DNA of 64,000 nucleotides, taken from the NCBI GenBank assembly GCA_015232355.1, contig JADFZW010000019.1:1-64000 (forward strand), in the 5' to 3' direction. Origin of the DNA: Oligoflexia bacterium. Lineage in GTDB: Bacteria; Bdellovibrionota; Bacteriovoracia; Bacteriovoracales; Bacteriovoracaceae. Of the stretch, positions 9,885 to 54,727 are shown one piece after another. Position 1 is the first letter of the stretch. Each line of letters begins with the position of its first letter. Made by a program: the position numbers and the translations under genes. The notes beneath the pieces were generated by a model. The model searched no databases. It worked only from the letters and a program-made list of their open reading frames with translations, and was not told the DNA's origin.

Positions 9885-10571
9885 ATGGCACAAATAGTAA
9901 TTATTGAAGATGAACCCTCTGTTGCAGCAAGTGTTCGATTTGCACTTGATAGAGAGGGATTATCTACTATCTGGGCCTCCTCTGGAAGAGAAGGACTAAA
10001 TCACATTTCGGAAAATACATCTTTAATTATTCTGGATATAGGACTTCCTGATGAAACTGGGTTTGAGATCTGTACGAAAATTAGAGACAGATGGTCCATT
10101 CCCATAATCTATCTTACTGCAAGAATTGAGGATAGAGATATGATCAAAGCATTCGATCTTGGTGGTGACGATTATGTTACTAAACCTTTCAAATTAGAGG
10201 TGCTTGTTGCTAGAATAAAAGCACACCTTAGAAGAAATTTTCGAGATGAGGAGGTCAGCTCACATACAAACACCTCAAAAATGCCTTTTCAAATCGATGA
10301 GGGAAAAAAGATCATTTCATATTTTGAGCAAAAGCTTGATCTAACGAAATCTGAATTTCAACTGCTTAAATGTCTTATTCAAAAACCAGGATGGGTTTAC
10401 TCTCGCAATCAATTATTAGAATCAATCTGGGATGAAAATAATAATTCCACAAATCGAGCGATAGACACTCATATTAAATTGCTTAGGCAAAAATTATTAA
10501 AAGTAAATAATCATATTCAAAGTATAATAACCCATCGTGGGCATGGGTATTCCATAAATGACAAATGGTAA
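9885..10571 (+). CDS. creB: CreB-like OmpR-family response regulator
   Basis: A 228-residue DNA-binding response regulator. The receiver has EDE, phospho-acceptor Asp51 (ILDIGLPDETGFE), Thr78 region (YLTAR) and Lys100 (DYVTKPF). The winged-helix effector ends in IITHRGHGYSI. Several strings (LDIGLPD-TGFE, LTAR-E, INTHRG-GYS-like end) resemble Escherichia coli CreB more than PhoB/OmpR in my memory. It overlaps the kinase gene by 7 nt, implying translational coupling. AGGA precedes the ATG. Likely targets include its own operon, which carries the exosortase system. Orthology to CreB is an inference. Confidence 0.88.
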   Translation: MAQIVIIEDEPSVAASVRFALDREGLSTIWASSGREGLNHISENTSLIILDIGLPDETGFEICTKIRDRWSIPIIYLTARIEDRDMIKAFDLGGDDYVTKPFKLEVLVARIKAHLRRNFRDEEVSSHTNTSKMPFQIDEGKKIISYFEQKLDLTKSEFQLLKCLIQKPGWVYSRNQLLESIWDENNNSTNRAIDTHIKLLRQKLLKVNNHIQSIITHRGHGYSINDKW

Positions 10572-12001
10572 AACTTAGATATAAACTATTCTTAATAGTA
10601 TTTGGATTTTCAATAGTTGTCTACGCAATACTTGGAAGTTCATTCTATCTTGGGTTATTCAACCATTTTCAACAACAAGAGGAAATTTATCTTTTAAAAA
10701 TTGGAGAGTTGTGTGCAAATTCCATTGTCAATAATTCAATTAAGACTCTTGATCAAAGTAATATTCAAAAAATAATCCAATCTTGTCAAACCACCAAACA
10801 AAATATTGAATTGTTTTTTAGATTACAAGATCAAAATAATAGAATAATCTTCAACTCCTTCTCGCAAATGTATGAACCATTTCTCTTGGAATCTCTTTAC
10901 CAAAATAATATTAATAAATATCGTACCCTACAACTAACTCCCTTTTTTGTTATTCAACTATTGAGTCTTCCAATTGAAAAAAAAGATGGTTTCACTGGCA
11001 CTTTGTATATTGGAAAAAGAAAAACCACCTGGTTGATGCTTTTATCTGAGGCCAGAGTATTAGTATTAACCAATGGTTTAATTGCTCTGTTTTTTTTATT
11101 AGGTCTCTCCATAGCGTTTACTCTAATCATTACTCGCCCACTGGAATCTTTACATCAGTTCGTACTAAAGAGAAAAAAAAATTTTAAAGTTCAATTACCA
11201 AAACTTGCCAAAGATGAAATTGGCCAAATAGGAACAGAGTTTTATGAATTAATAAAAGATCTCGATGGTAAGAATTATATCGAAAACTATACCCAAACTT
11301 TAACCCATGAACTTAAAAGTCCAATAACTGGAATACAAACTGCTATAGAAATTTTAAAACAAGATTTAAACAAGCAAGATCTAAATAATAAAGAAAGAGA
11401 ATTTTTTACCGAACAAATTGAAGCTGAATCGTCACGACTAGTGGTTATTATTGAAAGGATGCTAACTCTTACAAATTTAGAACATGGACAACACATCCTA
11501 AACAAAAATAAACATTTTCTGAATGCTCTTCTCGAAAAAACTGTTTGTAATTTATCAACCAAGCTTTCTCTGAAAAATCTTTCTGTTTCTGTATTAACAA
11601 AAGTAGAAAATATTTACCTAAACGTAGATGAAGATCTTTTTATATTAGCAATCCAAAATATAATTGAAAATTCTATAGACTTTGCTCCTAAAAATTCAAT
11701 TATTACTATCGAATCTGAAGCAGAAGAAGCAAAAGAAGATCTAATTGTGATTCGTATTACGGATCAAGGATCAGGAATTCCAGACTATGCAATAAATAAA
11801 GTATTTGACAAATTTTATTCATTACCTCGCCCCAATGGAGGAAGGAAAAGCACTGGCCTTGGCCTATGTTTTGTAAAGCAAATCATTGAGTTACATTCAG
11901 GAACAATTACTATCAATAATTGCGATCAATTAGATCAGTCAGCATCTGGCGCAATCGTTAAAATTACCATTCCCGTAATTACTCACACAAAACTCACATA
12001 A
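10565..12001 (+). CDS. creC: CreC-like sensor histidine kinase
   Basis: A 478-residue inner-membrane kinase. Transmembrane helix 1 is about residues 7-30, a periplasmic sensor follows to about 162, helix 2 about 166-189, then a HAMP-like linker. The H-box is TLTHELKSP (His248), preceded by GKNYIENY, a string shared with CreC (GKNYIEQY). The ATPase domain contains GSGIPDYA and FYSLPRPNGG, again close to CreC. Overlaps creB by 7 nt and is followed after 74 bp by the VIT-domain gene. The phosphotransfer partner is clearly CreB. The stimulus is unknown; the neighbours suggest an envelope signal. Confidence 0.88.
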   Translation: MVKLRYKLFLIVFGFSIVVYAILGSSFYLGLFNHFQQQEEIYLLKIGELCANSIVNNSIKTLDQSNIQKIIQSCQTTKQNIELFFRLQDQNNRIIFNSFSQMYEPFLLESLYQNNINKYRTLQLTPFFVIQLLSLPIEKKDGFTGTLYIGKRKTTWLMLLSEARVLVLTNGLIALFFLLGLSIAFTLIITRPLESLHQFVLKRKKNFKVQLPKLAKDEIGQIGTEFYELIKDLDGKNYIENYTQTLTHELKSPITGIQTAIEILKQDLNKQDLNNKEREFFTEQIEAESSRLVVIIERMLTLTNLEHGQHILNKNKHFLNALLEKTVCNLSTKLSLKNLSVSVLTKVENIYLNVDEDLFILAIQNIIENSIDFAPKNSIITIESEAEEAKEDLIVIRITDQGSGIPDYAINKVFDKFYSLPRPNGGRKSTGLGLCFVKQIIELHSGTITINNCDQLDQSASGAIVKITIPVITHTKLT

Positions 12002-12075
12002 CAGACACCTTTCTCTCAAAATAAAAAAATATATTAGATAAAACGTTTCTTAACAAAGTTGATTAGGAGTAAATT

Positions 12076-14637
12076 GTGAGCAATAATTATGACAAAAAAA
12101 AATGGATTTTTAAACAAAAATCAATTGCGGGAATAAAACTAAGTAATGGTGCTTGGATAGTCGCTCTAGGTATCTTTTTATGGGGATTAGGAGTGTTAAC
12201 AATATTCTCATTATTAGCATTATCGATAGATAAAAATAGTGGGAGTAATGGCCAAACATTTTTTTATATTGGAAGTTTAATTGGTTTATTCTTTTCCATT
12301 TGGATTGGGATAAAAATCTATCTCTCTAGACCAAATCTACTAGTATTGATAACTCTTTTAATAACTGGAATTGCATTCTTTACTGAAAAAATAATTTTAA
12401 ATAATATCTTTTTTTCCAGTTTTTCAACAGTAACATCAATTATGTTGTGGTCTATATTTGCATCTCTACTACTCATCTTTCTAATAAATTATTTACCCAA
12501 AATTACATTTTCTATTCTTATGCCCATATATACCCTGGGCGCACTAATTTCAATACCTTTTGCAATTAAACTATTTTTGATAATGGCCATTAGTTGGATG
12601 GCAATTCCTTTTGCAGGTATTGGTTTAATAACTTATGCACCAATATTTGCAATTTTTAGCTTTATTCAGTCATGGTTGGAAATAAACAAATTACTTAAAT
12701 CAGATCTATACCTTAAAAAATTCGGAACAATCGCTTCTCTATTAGTAGTAATTTTTGTTTTAGCTTATACTGGTTTTACTAGATATCAACTGCTATCTCT
12801 TAATAAAGAAATCAAACAGTTATTTCTTGAATCAAGAAAACCATACACTCTAACAAATGATCTACCTAATTGGTATAAATTTTCAGAGTTTGTCCAATCC
12901 AAACATTCAGCAATATTTTTTACTGGCATGTACGATAATAAATTTTCTATCGAACGATATGGACACGAATTTAATCCACTCCTCTATATAGCTGGAATGG
13001 GTATTAATCATAATGATTATTATCGGAGTTCGAACGAACAGAGCTGGCATGATATTGTAAAATCAGGTCTTCTTATAGATAATGTAGGTAAAATTTACGA
13101 AAATAACCTGCAGAAATTATTACCAGAATCATTGGAAACAATAAACACTCATGTTCAAATTTTCGTCAAAGAAAAGATTTCTTATACCGAAACTCAATTG
13201 CTTTTAAGCACTAAAAACAAATGGGATAAAGAAGTAGATCTGGTGATAAAAGTTCCCTCAGGAAGTGCTACTTCTCAACTTTCATTATGGATTGATGGAA
13301 TTGAACAACAATCCCGATTTGCTCCTAATGATATTGCAAAAAAAGCTTATGAAACTATCGTTAGTAAAAAAAGAGATCCTGCTATTTTGGAGTGGAAAGA
13401 TGAATCTCATCTTCGTCTCAGAGTATTTCCTGTAAGTAATGCTAAACCTAGAAAAGTTAAATTTGCTATCATCTCACCTCTCCTCTTTGAAAATAGCAAT
13501 ACTATCAAGATAGAAAGCATCAATCTTTATCGTATAAACAGATCAAATGCTATTCATCACATAGTAGTAGATTTATTTTCTAAAAAAAATAAGATCTTAA
13601 ATCTTAATTTTAATTCTAGTTTAGATGAATCTGAACAAAAAGAAATCTTTGCTTCAGATGCAATTCATTGGATGGCCAAAGGGAATTATCAAAATGATTG
13701 GTTTGTATCCATTAAGGGTGTCCAACAAGGATCAATGATCTCTAAAAAAGAGTTATTCTTGAATCAATTTAACACTTATGTATTCTTACTTAACAATTCA
13801 AGGACACAAAGCGAGTGGGCCGATTTAATTGAAAAAAACAAATTAGAAAGCAAAAATCAGATTAATAAAATCCTAGTTATTGGTAATGAGATTAATGAAA
13901 TTAAACTCAACTCAAATATAAAATCACAAATAGCAAAAATCAATTTACCTTTTGCTAATGTATTTCCTCTATACTTATATAAAAAAATTGCAAGTGATTC
14001 ATCAAAAATAATATTTTTTAGCGCATATGATTCTGCTCCTTCGATTCATAACTTCTCCCAAAGTAATTTGTTCAAAAAAACAAGAGATCACCTGATTAAT
14101 AATAAAGATAATCCTATCATTATGGTGGCATTAGATGACAAAATCTCACCTTACTACCAAAGTTTAAAAAACACTGGAGCATTAAATATTTATAGATTAT
14201 ATGAAAATAAATTTAATAAACTTATTCCTATCGAAACTGAAAGTAACTCAAGCATAGATAAATATACTCAAAGGTTACACTCCTATCAAAAATCGCTTTT
14301 GTCTCATGCTAAATCTGCCTTTGATTCTAATTATAATAATCTAACCCCAGAGCTAAAATCAGCAATTGAAAAAGCGCATATAGTTTCTCCATTTTCTACA
14401 CTTTTGGTTCTCGAATCAGAAAAAGATTATCTCGCATATAAAATTAATAATGTAGCTAGTGAACAAAATAATAGTACCCCTACTGATCCTTCTCTTAATA
14501 CAAAACTTGGTATCGTACCAGAACCCAGTGAATATTTCCTATTCATCATATGTTTAGGTATAATCATTTATCTCAATAGATCTCGGCTCTTCTCTCGAAT
14601 GTCTCGAATGTCTATGATCTATAGGATGCATAAATGA
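12076..14637 (+). CDS. VIT-domain membrane protein with PEP-CTERM-type sorting signal (XrtN substrate)
   Basis: An 853-residue protein built as follows: about seven membrane helices in residues 25-250, a large extracytoplasmic part with a VIT (vault/inter-alpha-trypsin) domain around residues 355-475 (diagnostic KRDPAILEW and LRLRVFPV), a von-Willebrand-like remainder, and a C-terminal tripartite sorting signal: PEP at about 816, hydrophobic helix, then an Arg-rich tail (RSRLFSRMSRMS). This matches the proteins described as sorted by exosortase XrtN in Bacteroidetes. It starts with GTG, six nt after AGGAG, and its stop overlaps the exosortase start by 4 nt. Predicted to be cut near PEP by the next gene product. 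Role of the VIT domain unknown. Confidence 0.85.
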   Translation: MSNNYDKKKWIFKQKSIAGIKLSNGAWIVALGIFLWGLGVLTIFSLLALSIDKNSGSNGQTFFYIGSLIGLFFSIWIGIKIYLSRPNLLVLITLLITGIAFFTEKIILNNIFFSSFSTVTSIMLWSIFASLLLIFLINYLPKITFSILMPIYTLGALISIPFAIKLFLIMAISWMAIPFAGIGLITYAPIFAIFSFIQSWLEINKLLKSDLYLKKFGTIASLLVVIFVLAYTGFTRYQLLSLNKEIKQLFLESRKPYTLTNDLPNWYKFSEFVQSKHSAIFFTGMYDNKFSIERYGHEFNPLLYIAGMGINHNDYYRSSNEQSWHDIVKSGLLIDNVGKIYENNLQKLLPESLETINTHVQIFVKEKISYTETQLLLSTKNKWDKEVDLVIKVPSGSATSQLSLWIDGIEQQSRFAPNDIAKKAYETIVSKKRDPAILEWKDESHLRLRVFPVSNAKPRKVKFAIISPLLFENSNTIKIESINLYRINRSNAIHHIVVDLFSKKNKILNLNFNSSLDESEQKEIFASDAIHWMAKGNYQNDWFVSIKGVQQGSMISKKELFLNQFNTYVFLLNNSRTQSEWADLIEKNKLESKNQINKILVIGNEINEIKLNSNIKSQIAKINLPFANVFPLYLYKKIASDSSKIIFFSAYDSAPSIHNFSQSNLFKKTRDHLINNKDNPIIMVALDDKISPYYQSLKNTGALNIYRLYENKFNKLIPIETESNSSIDKYTQRLHSYQKSLLSHAKSAFDSNYNNLTPELKSAIEKAHIVSPFSTLLVLESEKDYLAYKINNVASEQNNSTPTDPSLNTKLGIVPEPSEYFLFIICLGIIIYLNRSRLFSRMSRMSMIYRMHK

Positions 14638-16001
14638 ACTTGAGATATCAAAGTATTATTGCAAATACTTTCTTTTTTATCATGTGGATATCTGTGGCCA
14701 TACTGATAATACACAGACTGACTAACATCGAACATCTGATAGAATTTTATCCACTGATTTTTATGCCTTATTTTATCTCTGGATTTAAAAAGGAAAATGA
14801 TAATAATAAAAACAAGCATTCAATCCTCATCTCCATAGTGGTTGGTATTTTTTTTATCACTGGAATCTACTTTAAAATGTGGGCGATTATTTGGTTAGGA
14901 TCTTGGGCCATCTTTATGATTACTCTAAAAACTTTTGGTGCCAATGTTAGTTTAGCATATATACTTCTTCTTTTGGTCTCACCACCATTTGATCTAAAGT
15001 TTGATATCTTTTTTGGTCATCATTTAAGGCAATATGCAACCGCCTATGCAGTTACCATGCTAAAAATATTTAATCCCTCAACAATTCAGATTGGTAATGG
15101 AATCCTTATTGAAGGAAAAATATTTTATGTTGAAAAAATTTGTGAAGGACTAAAATTGGCATCTGCTTTAGTGGTTACTCTTTTACTTCTTTGGAAGCAT
15201 TATACGATTAACACTCATAAAACAAAATCCTTTCTTTATTGGACAATGGTAGTTTTCATTAGCGCTCTATTATGGTTTTTATCCAATGTTTTTAGAATTT
15301 TTTTATTAACTAGATTAGATATACCTCCAGAGAATCCTTTTCATGAATTAATTGGTATCACTATCTTTATTTGTGTTGTCATAACCCCTCTTTTATTAAT
15401 ATCTTTTCTATTATTTTCTAGACGAAAACAGACTACAAAATTTAAAATATTCAATCTTAGAGTATCACCGAAACATACCATAATTGCGACCATCACACTA
15501 TTATTAGTATTATTTGCTAATTATTCAAATCATGAAATAAAACCTTCCATATATTGGCCACAAAAAATCGAATCTTTTTTCAAAATGTCTGCTGATGAAA
15601 ATATTCCAACTATTGATGATGTTGCTATTTATAAAAATGTAAATTCTTATCTCATATTAAAAAACAATCTTAATCCAATACGTGTGGCCCATCATCCACT
15701 TCAGTGTTGGCAGGCCATAGGATATCTATTAACAGGTGAACAATCCATAGCTGTTGATAAAATTAAAGATCAAAATATTCGTAAGCATCTAATTATCAAA
15801 AATGGTATCCGATACAATTTAGTATGGTTTTATCTTATTTATTCCTCAAAAAATTTATTTATCTCAGACTCAGAGTGGATATGGAGAAAGCAGAAGTTAA
15901 TAAATGCCCATAAGGTAATTCTTGTCAATTGGTTTGCTCAAGAAAATATTATAATGCCAAATTGGATCGAGCTTAGTGTTCGAATAATTACAAACATGTA
16001 A
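14634..16001 (+). CDS. xrtN: Exosortase, XrtN type
   Basis: A 455-residue polytopic membrane transpeptidase-like enzyme. The catalytic triad of exosortases is visible: Cys170 (KICEGLK), Arg221 (NVFRIFL) and His237 (NPFHELIG), each at a helix edge. The first 270 residues hold about eight helices; residues 295-455 form an extracytoplasmic C-terminal domain with HHPLQCW, like the EpsI-type extension of XrtN. The ATG overlaps the TGA of the substrate gene (ATGA), so the two are translated as a pair. It presumably cleaves the PEP-CTERM-like tail of its neighbour. XrtN versus XrtK assignment is from memory; the exosortase call itself is strong. Confidence 0.88.
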   Translation: MNLRYQSIIANTFFFIMWISVAILIIHRLTNIEHLIEFYPLIFMPYFISGFKKENDNNKNKHSILISIVVGIFFITGIYFKMWAIIWLGSWAIFMITLKTFGANVSLAYILLLLVSPPFDLKFDIFFGHHLRQYATAYAVTMLKIFNPSTIQIGNGILIEGKIFYVEKICEGLKLASALVVTLLLLWKHYTINTHKTKSFLYWTMVVFISALLWFLSNVFRIFLLTRLDIPPENPFHELIGITIFICVVITPLLLISFLLFSRRKQTTKFKIFNLRVSPKHTIIATITLLLVLFANYSNHEIKPSIYWPQKIESFFKMSADENIPTIDDVAIYKNVNSYLILKNNLNPIRVAHHPLQCWQAIGYLLTGEQSIAVDKIKDQNIRKHLIIKNGIRYNLVWFYLIYSSKNLFISDSEWIWRKQKLINAHKVILVNWFAQENIIMPNWIELSVRIITNM

Positions 16002-16321: not shown

Positions 16322-17254
16322 ATGGCAAATGCAACCATAAAAACAAATATTACAATCCAGTTAATAATACTCTTACTTTCATTTGCATTTTTTGGAGCAC
16401 TTCACTCTTGTAAACCCAATCAATCAAATAATCCAACTGCTTCACTTAAAATCAATGTTACGGATGGAATATCACCTTTAGTTGTTACATTTGATGCCAG
16501 CGGATCATCTACTCCTAATGGAACAATTACAAGTTATCTTTTTAATTTTGGTGATGGTAGCTCACAAACGGTCACTACATCTAAAACATCCCACACCTAT
16601 ACTGGTGTCGGTACCTTCTATGCATCAGTTACTGTAACTGATAGTAGTGGAAAAACTGCTAAATCTTCACTCTACTCTATTTCAGTTGTAAGTCTTGGAA
16701 CTGGTGATGTGACTTTAGGAGATCCCACTTACTCTGGAAATGGATGCCCAAGCGGAACAATAAATGCTACTCTCTCTCCAGATAATAAAACATTAAGCGT
16801 ACTCTTTGATCAATTTATAGCTAATGCGGGAAATGGCAGTGGCGGACTATTGAGCGATAGAAAATCATGTTCACTCGCCATCCCTGTTCATCTACCAAAT
16901 GGATATAGTGTTTCTGTCTATAAAATAGATTTTAGAGGACATGCGGAAATTCCCTTAAATGGCGATGCTCTTGGAAACTTAAAAGTTGATTACTTCTTTG
17001 CTGGCCAACAAGGCGTCTCTCTTACAAAATCTTTTGCACCTGGATTTGCAGATGACTTTACCATTACAGATGATCTAGCAGCAACAGCAGAAGTATGGTC
17101 AAGTTGCGGTGAGGATGTTATCTTGCGTACCAACACAAATATCAGTGTAAAAACAAATGTTAGTGCTGAGGCCACAATGCTCTCAATCGACAGCATCGAT
17201 ATGGCCACAGGACTTACCTATCATATCAGATATCAAGCTTGCCAAAAAAAGTAA
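16322..17254 (+). CDS. PKD-domain lipoprotein
   Basis: A 310-residue lipoprotein. The signal peptide (residues 1-30) ends in GALHSC, an acceptable lipobox with the lipidated Cys about residue 30. Residues 40-123 are a PKD domain: the start ISPLVVTFDASGSS, the core LFNFGDGS and the closing FYASVTVTD are textbook. The remaining 185 residues contain several Cys and a GNGCPSG start and are not recognised. PKD domains usually mediate protein or glycan contacts on the cell surface. AAGGA precedes the ATG. It stands between the exosortase operon and the riboflavin genes with no obvious tie to either. Confidence 0.85.
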   Translation: MANATIKTNITIQLIILLLSFAFFGALHSCKPNQSNNPTASLKINVTDGISPLVVTFDASGSSTPNGTITSYLFNFGDGSSQTVTTSKTSHTYTGVGTFYASVTVTDSSGKTAKSSLYSISVVSLGTGDVTLGDPTYSGNGCPSGTINATLSPDNKTLSVLFDQFIANAGNGSGGLLSDRKSCSLAIPVHLPNGYSVSVYKIDFRGHAEIPLNGDALGNLKVDYFFAGQQGVSLTKSFAPGFADDFTITDDLAATAEVWSSCGEDVILRTNTNISVKTNVSAEATMLSIDSIDMATGLTYHIRYQACQKK

Positions 17255-21845: not shown

Positions 21846-22643
21846 ATGTCAAACTTTGCTTCTGGTTTTAATTTTGATTTTGATTTTGATTTTAGTGGGC
21901 AACATGTTTTAATAACTGGTGGAACAAGGGGAATTGGACTCGGAATTACTCGCTCATTTATAAATGCCAATGCTAATGTTATTACTACATATCTAAATAA
22001 TGAGAGTGCCAAAGATAGTTTGTTGCTTGAATATGAACAATTACAATCACAATCCCCGACAAAAGGAAAGTTAGAAGTAATCAAGTGTGATGTTTCCAAG
22101 GAAGAAGAAGTTAAAAATCTCTATTCTCATCTAGAAAATAGTTATCCCTCACTGGAAATTCTAATTAACAATGCGGGAATAAAACGAGACTCTATTGTAG
22201 GAACCATGAGTAGTGATAATTGGCATGAAGTTATTAATACTAATTTAAACGCAGTCTTTTACACCTCAAAACTGGCAGTCCTATCATTTTTAAAAAATAG
22301 ATATGGTCGAATAATTAATATCGGATCAGTAGGAGGTAAATTAGGATTGGCCGGACAAGCAAACTACTCTGCAACCAAAGCAGCACTAATTGGATTTTCA
22401 AAATCTTTAAGCAAGGAAGTAGCAAAAAAGGGAATTACCGTAAACGTTGTTGAACCAGGTTTTATCGATACAGATTTTGTAGCTGAATTATCTAATGAAT
22501 TAAAAGAAAGTTATAAACAAATGGTACCACTTCGTCGCTTTGGTAAAATTGAAGAGGTTGCTTACGCTGTTTTATGTTTGGCCAACAAAAATGCATCCTA
22601 CATAACAGGAACTACTTTGGAGGTATCTGGTGGATTATCGTAG
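21846..22643 (+). CDS. FabG-like 3-ketoacyl-ACP reductase (SDR)
   Basis: A 265-residue classical short-chain dehydrogenase. The cofactor motif is TGGTRGIGLGI (about residues 25-35), NNAG is present, and the catalytic set is Ser161 (NIGSVGG), Tyr174 and Lys178 (YSATK). The Arg-containing TGGTRGIG and the full pattern suit NADPH-dependent ketoacyl-ACP reductases. The N-terminus carries a Phe-Asp/Asn repeat (residues 8-16) encoded by a GATTTT microsatellite. Its last codons contain the GGAGG that serves the next gene, which starts inside this one. Likely the ketoreduction step of a dedicated acyl-chain pathway. Confidence 0.88.
   Translation: MSNFASGFNFDFDFDFSGQHVLITGGTRGIGLGITRSFINANANVITTYLNNESAKDSLLLEYEQLQSQSPTKGKLEVIKCDVSKEEEVKNLYSHLENSYPSLEILINNAGIKRDSIVGTMSSDNWHEVINTNLNAVFYTSKLAVLSFLKNRYGRIINIGSVGGKLGLAGQANYSATKAALIGFSKSLSKEVAKKGITVNVVEPGFIDTDFVAELSNELKESYKQMVPLRRFGKIEEVAYAVLCLANKNASYITGTTLEVSGGLS
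21870..21894 (+). repeat. GATTTT microsatellite at an SDR N-terminus
   Basis: Four in-frame copies of a 6-bp unit coding Asp-Phe just before the Rossmann fold. Confidence 0.85.
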
Positions 22644-23964
22644 TGATATATTAAATCTTATTCCGCAACGACCTCCATTTCTATTTGTTGATCAAATAAT
22701 CTCCATCGACAATAAAAAGATTGTTACTAAAAAAATTATAAACAAAGATGAAGATTATTTAAAGGGCCACTTTCCTGGTCTTCCCATCGTTCCAGGAGTT
22801 CTTCTGTGTGAGGCAATCTTTCAAAGTAGCGCTCTATGGATTTCCCATGAAAATAATCAAGACAATCAAAGTAATCAAAATAAAATTGGCGTTGTTAGCA
22901 GAATAGAAAAATGCAAATTCAAACAAATGGTTGTACCTGGAGACACACTAACTATCGAAGTAGAGATAAAAGATAAATTGGAAAATGCTTTTTACTTTAG
23001 TGGTACGATTCATGTAAATGGTAAAGCTGCTGTCTATTGTGATTTTGCTTGTAATTTGATTGAACGACCTAACGAGCGAGCAGTATCAGAAGCAGGAGCA
23101 GAAGCAGCAGCAGAGATGATTGATAAATCAAATTATCAATCAAATGATAAATCAAACTATCAATCAGATTATCTTCAGATTAAAGGAAAAAATTATTTAA
23201 TCATGGGAGTATTTAATGCTAAAAGTATTGCCTTTAATATGGCCAAAACTTTAAAATCATTAGGTGCTAATTTGATTATTACAGCTCAAAACCAAGAAAT
23301 AATAAGTAAAATGAGTAAACACTTTCCCTCTGAAACTATACTTGCTTGTGATGTTTTAAAAGAAGATGATCTAAGAAACCTTAAAGAAACCATAAGCTCA
23401 AAGAAAATAAAATTAGATGGAATCCTTCACTCACTGGCCTTTGCTGATTTTTCCAAAGGCATGCCACCACTTCATGAAGTCAGCAAAGAAAACTTTTTTA
23501 ATGCTTTGGATGTCTCATGCTATTCACTAATAAATATTTGTAGATTATTAAAAGATTTTCTAGACTCAAAAGCATCAGTGGTTACAATATCTATTTCAAA
23601 TTTATTGGCCACCTCCTATGGTCATTTAGGTCCAATAAAAGCTACGCTACAATATATGATTCCCTATCTAGCAAAATCATTTTCTGAATTTTCGGAAGTT
23701 AGATTTAATAGTGTTGGCGCTGGCCCTTTAAAAACTTCTGCTTCTGCAGGTATCCCTGATTATCTAGACAATTACCTTTTTAGCGAACAACTGACTCTAA
23801 GAAAACGCTCTTTAACAACAGAAGAGGTTTCCAATACCGTCCTCTTTTTATTAAGTCAAATTTCTAGTGGTATCAATGGCCAAAATATTATCGTGGATGC
23901 AGGAATGAATCTAAATGGCTTTGACAAAAAAATTGTTAAAGCAGTAGTAAAGGACTTATATTAA
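22630..23964 (+). CDS. FabZ-FabI fusion: hydroxyacyl-ACP dehydratase + enoyl-ACP reductase
   Basis: A 444-residue two-enzyme protein. Residues 1-150 are a FabZ hot-dog fold: PQRPPFLFVD, catalytic His47 (GHFPGLPIVPG) and Glu61 (LLCEAIFQ). A Ser/Asn/Gln-repeat linker (about 155-180) leads to a FabI-type SDR: MGVFNAKSIAFNMAK cofactor motif, then Tyr330-x6-Lys337 (YGHLGPIK), the enoyl-reductase spacing. The two activities are consecutive steps of fatty-acid elongation, so the fusion passes product directly. The start is GTG, 8 nt after GGAGG, overlapping the SDR gene by 14 nt. With the two genes before it, it makes a reduction-dehydration-reduction set lacking only a ketosynthase. Confidence 0.87.
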   Translation: MDYRSDILNLIPQRPPFLFVDQIISIDNKKIVTKKIINKDEDYLKGHFPGLPIVPGVLLCEAIFQSSALWISHENNQDNQSNQNKIGVVSRIEKCKFKQMVVPGDTLTIEVEIKDKLENAFYFSGTIHVNGKAAVYCDFACNLIERPNERAVSEAGAEAAAEMIDKSNYQSNDKSNYQSDYLQIKGKNYLIMGVFNAKSIAFNMAKTLKSLGANLIITAQNQEIISKMSKHFPSETILACDVLKEDDLRNLKETISSKKIKLDGILHSLAFADFSKGMPPLHEVSKENFFNALDVSCYSLINICRLLKDFLDSKASVVTISISNLLATSYGHLGPIKATLQYMIPYLAKSFSEFSEVRFNSVGAGPLKTSASAGIPDYLDNYLFSEQLTLRKRSLTTEEVSNTVLFLLSQISSGINGQNIIVDAGMNLNGFDKKIVKAVVKDLY

Positions 23965-53160: not shown

Positions 53161-54069
53161 TTAAACCATTTCCTCAATAATATGAGAGAAAAATTTGCTA
53201 TTCCACACTTTCAAGGCAAAATTATCATTAACAAAGGGTTCAACATCTTGAATCGCCTGTTGCCAATTAACTTTAGAAATTCTTTCTAATAAAAGTTGCT
53301 TTAGATCTTTCTTTAAATCTACATTACTCATTAATTTTTTATCTGCTACATGAGCATCAATTTTCGCTTGCTTTTGAGTTTGTAAAAATTTTGCCTCTAA
53401 GTATTTTAGATTGGGAATGATTTTATGTTTATGATACCATAGAAAGTCATAGTAATCCCTTCCTTTAACTCGATCTCCTCTCCAATTTCTACAAAGGATA
53501 GCATGCAATTTTCCTGCAAATAAACTTGGTAAATCCAAAATCTGATATTCAAAAGAGATTGGATAATTGTGATATTTTATTTCTGTGCTTGATTGATAAT
53601 TAGGTGGATTAACATCAATTTCAACCTTAACACAAATCTGATCATTTTTATTAATTCCCTTACTAGGATTATCAATTCCTTCAATTAACAACAAGTTTTC
53701 TAAGGTGTTTCCTTTAACAAATGCAGATTCTACATGTAAGTTTACATTTATTTTTTTTTTCTTATTTGTAGTTAATTTAAGTCCGAAACTTAGCAACTCC
53801 TCATCTATTCCCTTTATAAAAGAACTTATATCAAAGTGAAGATCTTTTTTTCTTAATTCAAAATCTAGATCCTCGGAAAAACGATCAAGTTTATGAGCAA
53901 TTCTTAGAGCAGAACCTCCATAAAAAGCAGCTCTTTCAAAAAAACCATGTCTAGATAATCCAAGAAGAATTATCTCTTGAATAATTTCTTTTAGTGCACT
54001 TTTATACTCCATTTTGGTCTTACAATTATATCTTTTAATCATGGATTCAATTGCAGGATGTATGGCCAT
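53161..54069 (-). CDS. abiEii: AbiEii-type nucleotidyltransferase toxin
   Basis: A 302-residue toxin of the type IV AbiE system. The nucleotidyltransferase core reads FYGGSALR then FSEDLDFEL (Gly52/Ser53, Asp67 and Asp69), followed by a conserved Lys in LFAGKLHAIL and the RGRDYYDFLWY block (here KGRDYYDF). The antitoxin gene lies 25 bp upstream. Toxins of this family add nucleotides to tRNA or other targets and stop growth, giving abortive phage infection. All motifs intact, so likely functional. Confidence 0.9.
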   Translation of the reverse strand: MAIHPAIESMIKRYNCKTKMEYKSALKEIIQEIILLGLSRHGFFERAAFYGGSALRIAHKLDRFSEDLDFELRKKDLHFDISSFIKGIDEELLSFGLKLTTNKKKKINVNLHVESAFVKGNTLENLLLIEGIDNPSKGINKNDQICVKVEIDVNPPNYQSSTEIKYHNYPISFEYQILDLPSLFAGKLHAILCRNWRGDRVKGRDYYDFLWYHKHKIIPNLKYLEAKFLQTQKQAKIDAHVADKKLMSNVDLKKDLKQLLLERISKVNWQQAIQDVEPFVNDNFALKVWNSKFFSHIIEEMV

Positions 54070-54094
54070 ATAATATTAACCTACCTATGTTAAT

Positions 54095-54727
54095 CTACCT
54101 CTTCGAAAAAGATATCAAGGTATTTATAAAGTTAATTACATATTCTTTGCTATGAACTTTTTTTATTTGCAAAAGAGTTTTTTTATTAAATTTCTTCAAA
54201 GCATCTTCGTCAATTCTCAAATCATCTAATAAATATCCTAGATGGTCTGACTGACTTTTTAAGTTTTTTATCTTCTTAAGAAAAATTAAATCAATTAATG
54301 CTTTTTCAGCAGATGCCATAAGAAAATTACCTTCTGCTTGTTGATGATACTCAATACCCACACTATAAATATCTACAGGTAGACAACTATAAGCAAACAC
54401 TCCAACTGGAGTTTGAAACATTTTTTTCCTTTTGAAACAAACAGATGTAATCAGATTTACTCTTTCTGGTATAAGTCCATGATGACTTAGCGCCCACTCT
54501 AAAGATATTGCCGAAGGACCGTAAACTAAATTCGCAAGTGATGCTAAAGAATAACCTCTTTTGTATCTATCACCTAATACATACAAATTTCGCCTAATCT
54601 TGATTAGCTCTCCATTTTTTAAAATATGGTAAACCTTGTCCTTAGGATTTTTTTTATCTTTATATAAATCAAGTAATCCGCTATAGGTGATTATGTTACT
54701 TTTTAACTCAAGTAGTGATTCTTCCAT
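54095..54727 (-). CDS. abiEi: AbiEi-type antitoxin / autorepressor
   Basis: A 210-residue antitoxin. It has an N-terminal winged helix (YKDKKNPKDKVYHILKNGELIKIRRNLYVLG, about residues 22-53, with the R-x-x-Y turn) and the AbiEi C-terminal region (ISLEWALSHHGLIP, ASAEKALIDLIFLKK). In this family the winged helix binds inverted repeats in the promoter and represses the operon; the perfect 35-bp palindrome 19 bp before this start is a natural target. Neutralises the AbiEii protein without direct binding in the known cases. Confidence 0.88.
   Translation of the reverse strand: MEESLLELKSNIITYSGLLDLYKDKKNPKDKVYHILKNGELIKIRRNLYVLGDRYKRGYSLASLANLVYGPSAISLEWALSHHGLIPERVNLITSVCFKRKKMFQTPVGVFAYSCLPVDIYSVGIEYHQQAEGNFLMASAEKALIDLIFLKKIKNLKSQSDHLGYLLDDLRIDEDALKKFNKKTLLQIKKVHSKEYVINFINTLISFSKR

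Follow-up and report, generated by a model that had tools for sequence, protein, structure and literature searches.

The 64,000-nucleotide stretch of DNA analysed here (the window) carries a tight run of four genes on the + strand between positions 9885 and 16001, which code in order for a response regulator, a histidine kinase, a VIT-domain protein and an exosortase. The first two genes overlap by 7 nt and the last two by 4 nt, with 74 nt separating the second from the third, and the positions of the open reading frames bear out the layout given in a preliminary description of this sequence. The features of the block, with the evidence for each, are as follows.

9885..10571, + strand: OmpR-family response regulator, CreB-like (receiver plus winged helix; Asp51, Lys100); Pfam, NCBIfam
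10565..12001, + strand: sensor histidine kinase with CreC-like transmitter (His248); Pfam, NCBIfam, hydropathy
12065..12069, + strand: AGGAG, Shine-Dalgarno-like, ahead of the VIT gene, which starts with GTG; sequence reading
12076..14637, + strand: XrtN-type VIT protein, 853 aa; TIGR04477
12139..12786, + strand: about seven predicted TM helices, VIT protein residues 22-237; hydropathy scan
13147..13464, + strand: VIT domain, residues 358-463; PF08487, structure model, PDB match
13792..13806, + strand: NNSRT where a vWA domain would carry the metal-site motif DxSxS; aligned to 14 VIT-vWA proteins
14515..14634, + strand: PEP-CTERM sorting tail, made up of VPEPS, a hydrophobic helix and an Arg-rich end; TIGR02595
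14634..16001, + strand: exosortase, XrtN-like, 455 aa; TIGR04476, PF09721, triad alignment
15690..15707, + strand: HHPLQC motif in the C-terminal extension of the exosortase, resembling the HxPxxC of EpsI (suggestive only); XrtN model compared with an EpsI-like open reading frame

The GTG start codon of the VIT gene lies six bases after AGGAG, and all four genes have the codon usage usual in the window.

The best NCBIfam model for the exosortase is XrtN (TIGR04476), at 182.3 bits under a curated cut-off of 200, and the protein also passes the gathering score of the exosortase superfamily model PF09721 (28.4 vs 25.7 bits). Calibration of the XrtN model gave maximum scores for other exosortases of 48 bits in 27 VIT-bearing genomes and 75 bits in 387 further genomes; the window protein, although formally sub-threshold, therefore falls clearly with XrtN. 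In an alignment with 13 diverse exosortases, the invariant Cys, Arg and His correspond to Cys170, Arg221 and His237 of the window protein, which puts the triad at the positions claimed for it and in this family rather than a different one. A single-sequence structure model of the protein had a pLDDT of 44 and was unusable. In regard to the C-terminal extension, positions 331-399 of the XrtN model match an EpsI-like open reading frame located beside another exosortase, a suggestive likeness by which the extension may be EpsI-like. Direct homology of the extension to EpsI was not significant by profile comparison.

The VIT gene adjoins the exosortase gene through the 4-nt overlap, and its product scores 244.7 bits with the XrtN-VIT model TIGR04477, under a curated cut-off of 250. 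This match is composed of two segments, at profile positions 13-682 and 721-818, with the C-terminal part of the model included. Overall, the predicted architecture is that of a multi-TM N-terminus followed by a periplasmic VIT and vWA-like region and a PEP-CTERM tail. The VIT domain is over the Pfam cut-off (PF08487, 37.6 vs 26.5 bits) and is modeled with a pLDDT of ~80-92, with the vWA-like region modeled at low confidence. Among PDB structures, this model is best matched by heavy chain 1 of inter-alpha-inhibitor, which is of the VIT-vWA type (for its vWA domain and metal site, see PMC7170535); because the TM-scores are low (0.30), the match is reliable for the VIT part only. In the vWA-like region, the alignment shows NNSRT where the metal-site motif is expected. 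Thus, identification of the two proteins as XrtN and XrtN-VIT stands as far as these are the best NCBIfam models, but falls short in that both scores are just below the curated cut-offs.

Model scores near threshold and an altered vWA metal-site motif would also fit a decaying relic that has lost its sorting activity. This is a very improbable explanation given that all four open reading frames are intact and that the exosortase triad, kinase His248, the phospho-acceptor Asp51 of the regulator and the VIT motif RDPAILEW have all been kept.

The sorting tail of the VIT protein, VPEPSEYFLFIICLGIIIYLNRSRLFSRMSRMSMIYRMHK, is matched by the PEP-CTERM model TIGR02595 at 14515-14583, the C-terminus of the protein, at 16.4 bits against a cut-off of 16. 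The PEP, helix and Arg-rich tail that the preliminary description had read by eye is thus also recognized by the family model, by a thin margin of 0.4 bits. Note that Haft et al. 2006 caution that a lone PEP-CTERM match can be due to chance (PMC1569441). A whole-genome scan for other PEP-CTERM tails found no second one over the cut-off, and the whole genome contains one exosortase gene. The presence of one exosortase and one over-cut-off tail supports a one-enzyme, one-substrate system, as had been proposed, rather than an enzyme with many substrates, and this system adjoins the kinase and regulator genes.

The regulator has Pfam Response_reg and Trans_reg_C domains over the cut-off, and its best NCBIfam model is CreB, at 234.7 bits vs a cut-off of 273, with the next model at 179 bits; it is 37-44% identical to true CreB. 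The kinase has HisKA and HATPase_c domains over the Pfam cut-off, and its best NCBIfam model is CreC, at 286.6 bits vs a cut-off of 356, with the next model at 133 bits. The match to CreC covers profile positions 151-463 only and leaves out most of the sensor, which by hydropathy consists of two TM helices around a ~125-residue periplasmic region outside of the CreC match. In trees built from few sequences, neither the window regulator nor the window kinase falls within the CreB/CreC clade (support values 0.86 and 0.75). For comparison, true CreC is present in 11 genomes of the phylum, presumed to be Bdellovibrionota, with scores of 440-536 bits, and creD is close to creBC in all eight phylum loci inspected (directly beside the pair in seven of them). 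A search of the window genome for creD found none, and it is the VIT-exosortase pair that stands in the place of creD beside the window kinase and regulator genes. We therefore call the pair CreBC-like and not CreBC, as the proteins are below the cut-offs, are outside of the CreB/CreC clade with modest support, and come from a genome that lacks creD. The earlier assignment of a CreB/CreC-like pair consequently holds in that CreB and CreC lead the other models by wide margins, but does not extend to CreBC proper.

These same wide margins, together with the occurrence of creBC-creD in other families of the phylum, could be taken to mean that the pair represents a genuine CreBC whose creD has been lost and whose main targets are elsewhere in the genome. 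We consider this quite unlikely, as both proteins are under the equivalog cut-offs, against 440-536 bits for the true CreC proteins of the phylum, the trees place them outside of the clade with modest support, and creD is missing from the genome. It is possible, though doubtful, that a two-component lineage sister to CreBC swapped its CreD membrane effector for the VIT protein and a dedicated exosortase. The result would be a regulated mobile module analogous to the dedicated sortase systems but built on an unrelated sorting enzyme. If so, the replacement of creD by a sorting pair would offer a clue to the signals perceived by CreBC-type kinases. Separately, a comparison of the TM region of the VIT protein with CreD was not significant.

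When analyzing the distribution of the module, we found that none of 58 relatives searched for XrtN had a match near the cut-off; the three matches that did appear were weak (19-34 bits), and two of these are clearly other exosortases. The XrtN-VIT protein, which was searched for in 369 genomes of the phylum, was found in the window genome only, besides short, weak or generic partial matches, in agreement with the expectation that such a system would be unusual for this lineage. The CreC-like kinase was likewise absent from 38 relatives at E 1e-50. No relatives were found in plasmids and viral contigs, and 66 generic VIT loci, collected by a genome-contig scan whose query was a designed VIT-motif alignment with two of its three rows being consensus-like strings rather than database sequences, included none beside an XrtN-like gene or a CreC-like kinase. 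Two other genomes of the phylum (L020 4555-8798, L021 4819-8865) carry a different small exosortase in an apparent one-substrate locus, where the exosortase is neighbored by a short protein with a helix and basic tail at its end and, on the other side, by a large EpsI-like fusion protein.

A congener conserves the riboflavin genes and the PKD-DUF4360 gene of this contig at 59-93% identity and beyond them has other genes, not the block, indicating that the contig belongs to the host and that the block is lineage-specific. The assembly has 96 contigs and an estimated contamination of 3.2%, and the contig or block could on that account be thought to come from another organism. This has been largely refuted, and is extremely improbable, as the conserved riboflavin cluster is on the same contig and codon usage is uniform. 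Gain of the block by transfer is the simplest reading, with the direction of transfer probably into this lineage; loss in the relatives is the formal alternative. Two further observations were made on this part of the contig. The protein with PKD and DUF4360 domains (16322-17254) is beside ribE in the congener too, at 63% identity, and an open reading frame at 22630-23964, in which FabA-like dehydratase and enoyl-ACP-reductase-like domains are fused, is 72% identical in the congener.

Overall, we think it likely that the four genes form a dedicated sorting module of the exosortase N type that is self-contained, carries a two-component system of its own and was probably acquired laterally. Counting against this are the sub-cut-off scores with both family models, the slim PEP-CTERM margin and the 74-nt gap between the kinase and VIT genes, which has room for a promoter. 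This gap splits the block into two pairs, and no site resembling the CreB binding tag TTCACN6TTCAC is present before the operon (the number of matches in the window does not exceed chance expectation); both would fit two separate units that are chance neighbors, with sorting not under control of the regulator. Such an arrangement is unlikely, as the pairs share the same strand and tight spacing, are missing together from the relatives, and have a counterpart in the dedicated sortase system, a known sorting system with its own kinase and regulator.

If the four genes do form one sorting module, probably co-transcribed, then the ~seven N-terminal helices would place the VIT protein in the inner membrane, the VIT and vWA-like domains would lie on the periplasmic side, and the PEP-CTERM helix would be a second membrane anchor. 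The exosortase would cut at or near PEP using Cys170, helped by Arg221 and His237, with removal of the helix and Arg-rich end, and the new C-terminus would probably be handed to an acceptor such as a lipid or polysaccharide. Cleavage near PEP followed by transfer is inferred here from the exosortase family (PMC1569441), and a covalent link of substrate to polysaccharide is a proposal made in PMC12188702. As the N-terminal helices remain, processing would alter the C-terminal tether of the VIT protein and not release it. Finally, the CreBC-like kinase and regulator would sense an envelope state and set expression of the operon. Elsewhere in the window, a surface-polysaccharide-like cluster at 29995-61380, located 14 kb from the exosortase, is by sequence reading a possible acceptor source; it contains glycosyltransferase, sugar-nucleotide, heptose-kinase-like, transketolase-like and radical-SAM genes. 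Within this region is a likely AbiE-type toxin-antitoxin pair (53161-54727) consisting of an AbiEii nucleotidyltransferase (PF08843, 97 bits) and an upstream 210-aa partner that has no Pfam match.

Exosortase genes have been shown to matter for biofilm in the case of xrtF in Flavobacterium johnsoniae (PMC10936215). Because an exosortase often acts on many substrates, exosortase function is hard to assign. In a genome with a single enzyme, a single substrate and a sensor pair next to them, the acceptor and the signal become directly testable with few mutants. Our literature search found no paper on XrtN, on an exosortase with CreC, or on an exosortase with VIT.

Among known systems, the module most resembles exosortase N/XrtN-VIT (TIGR04476, TIGR04477), with which it shares an adjacent exosortase and VIT target, the full-length architecture and the best models by a wide margin, differing in that the window proteins are slightly below both curated cut-offs. 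The window locus also has a CreBC-like pair in front, and the combination of kinase pair and XrtN may be a new variant, a reading that rests on sub-threshold scores and a linkage found in no paper, in a comparison that leaves aside the Bacteroidota reference XrtN loci. MSEP-CTERM (TIGR04286) similarly combines a VIT domain and a C-terminal sorting signal in one protein, but its match is limited to the window VIT region (37 vs 150 bits). PEP-CTERM/EpsH systems with PrsK-PrsR also place exosortase substrates under two-component control; PrsR, however, belongs to the sigma-54-interacting regulators and has many PEP-CTERM genes as targets (PMC1569441), whereas the window has an OmpR-type regulator and one substrate. 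CreBC-CreD is the closest two-component family, and its regulator and kinase genes likewise have a membrane-protein gene after or beside them, but in the window VIT and exosortase genes are present instead of creD. The proteobacterial dedicated sortase system consists of one sorting enzyme, one VIT-domain target and its own kinase and regulator, and is represented in NCBIfam by TIGR03785 (kinase), TIGR03787 (regulator) and TIGR03788 (VIT-containing target). By these models, no window protein belongs to the dedicated sortase system families, as the window kinase and regulator are far below (103 vs 612 and 126 vs 336 bits, respectively) and TIGR03788 has no match to the window VIT protein at 1e-3. 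Nevertheless, the window module follows the same logic of one enzyme, one VIT target and a kinase and regulator of its own, with an exosortase in the place of the sortase.
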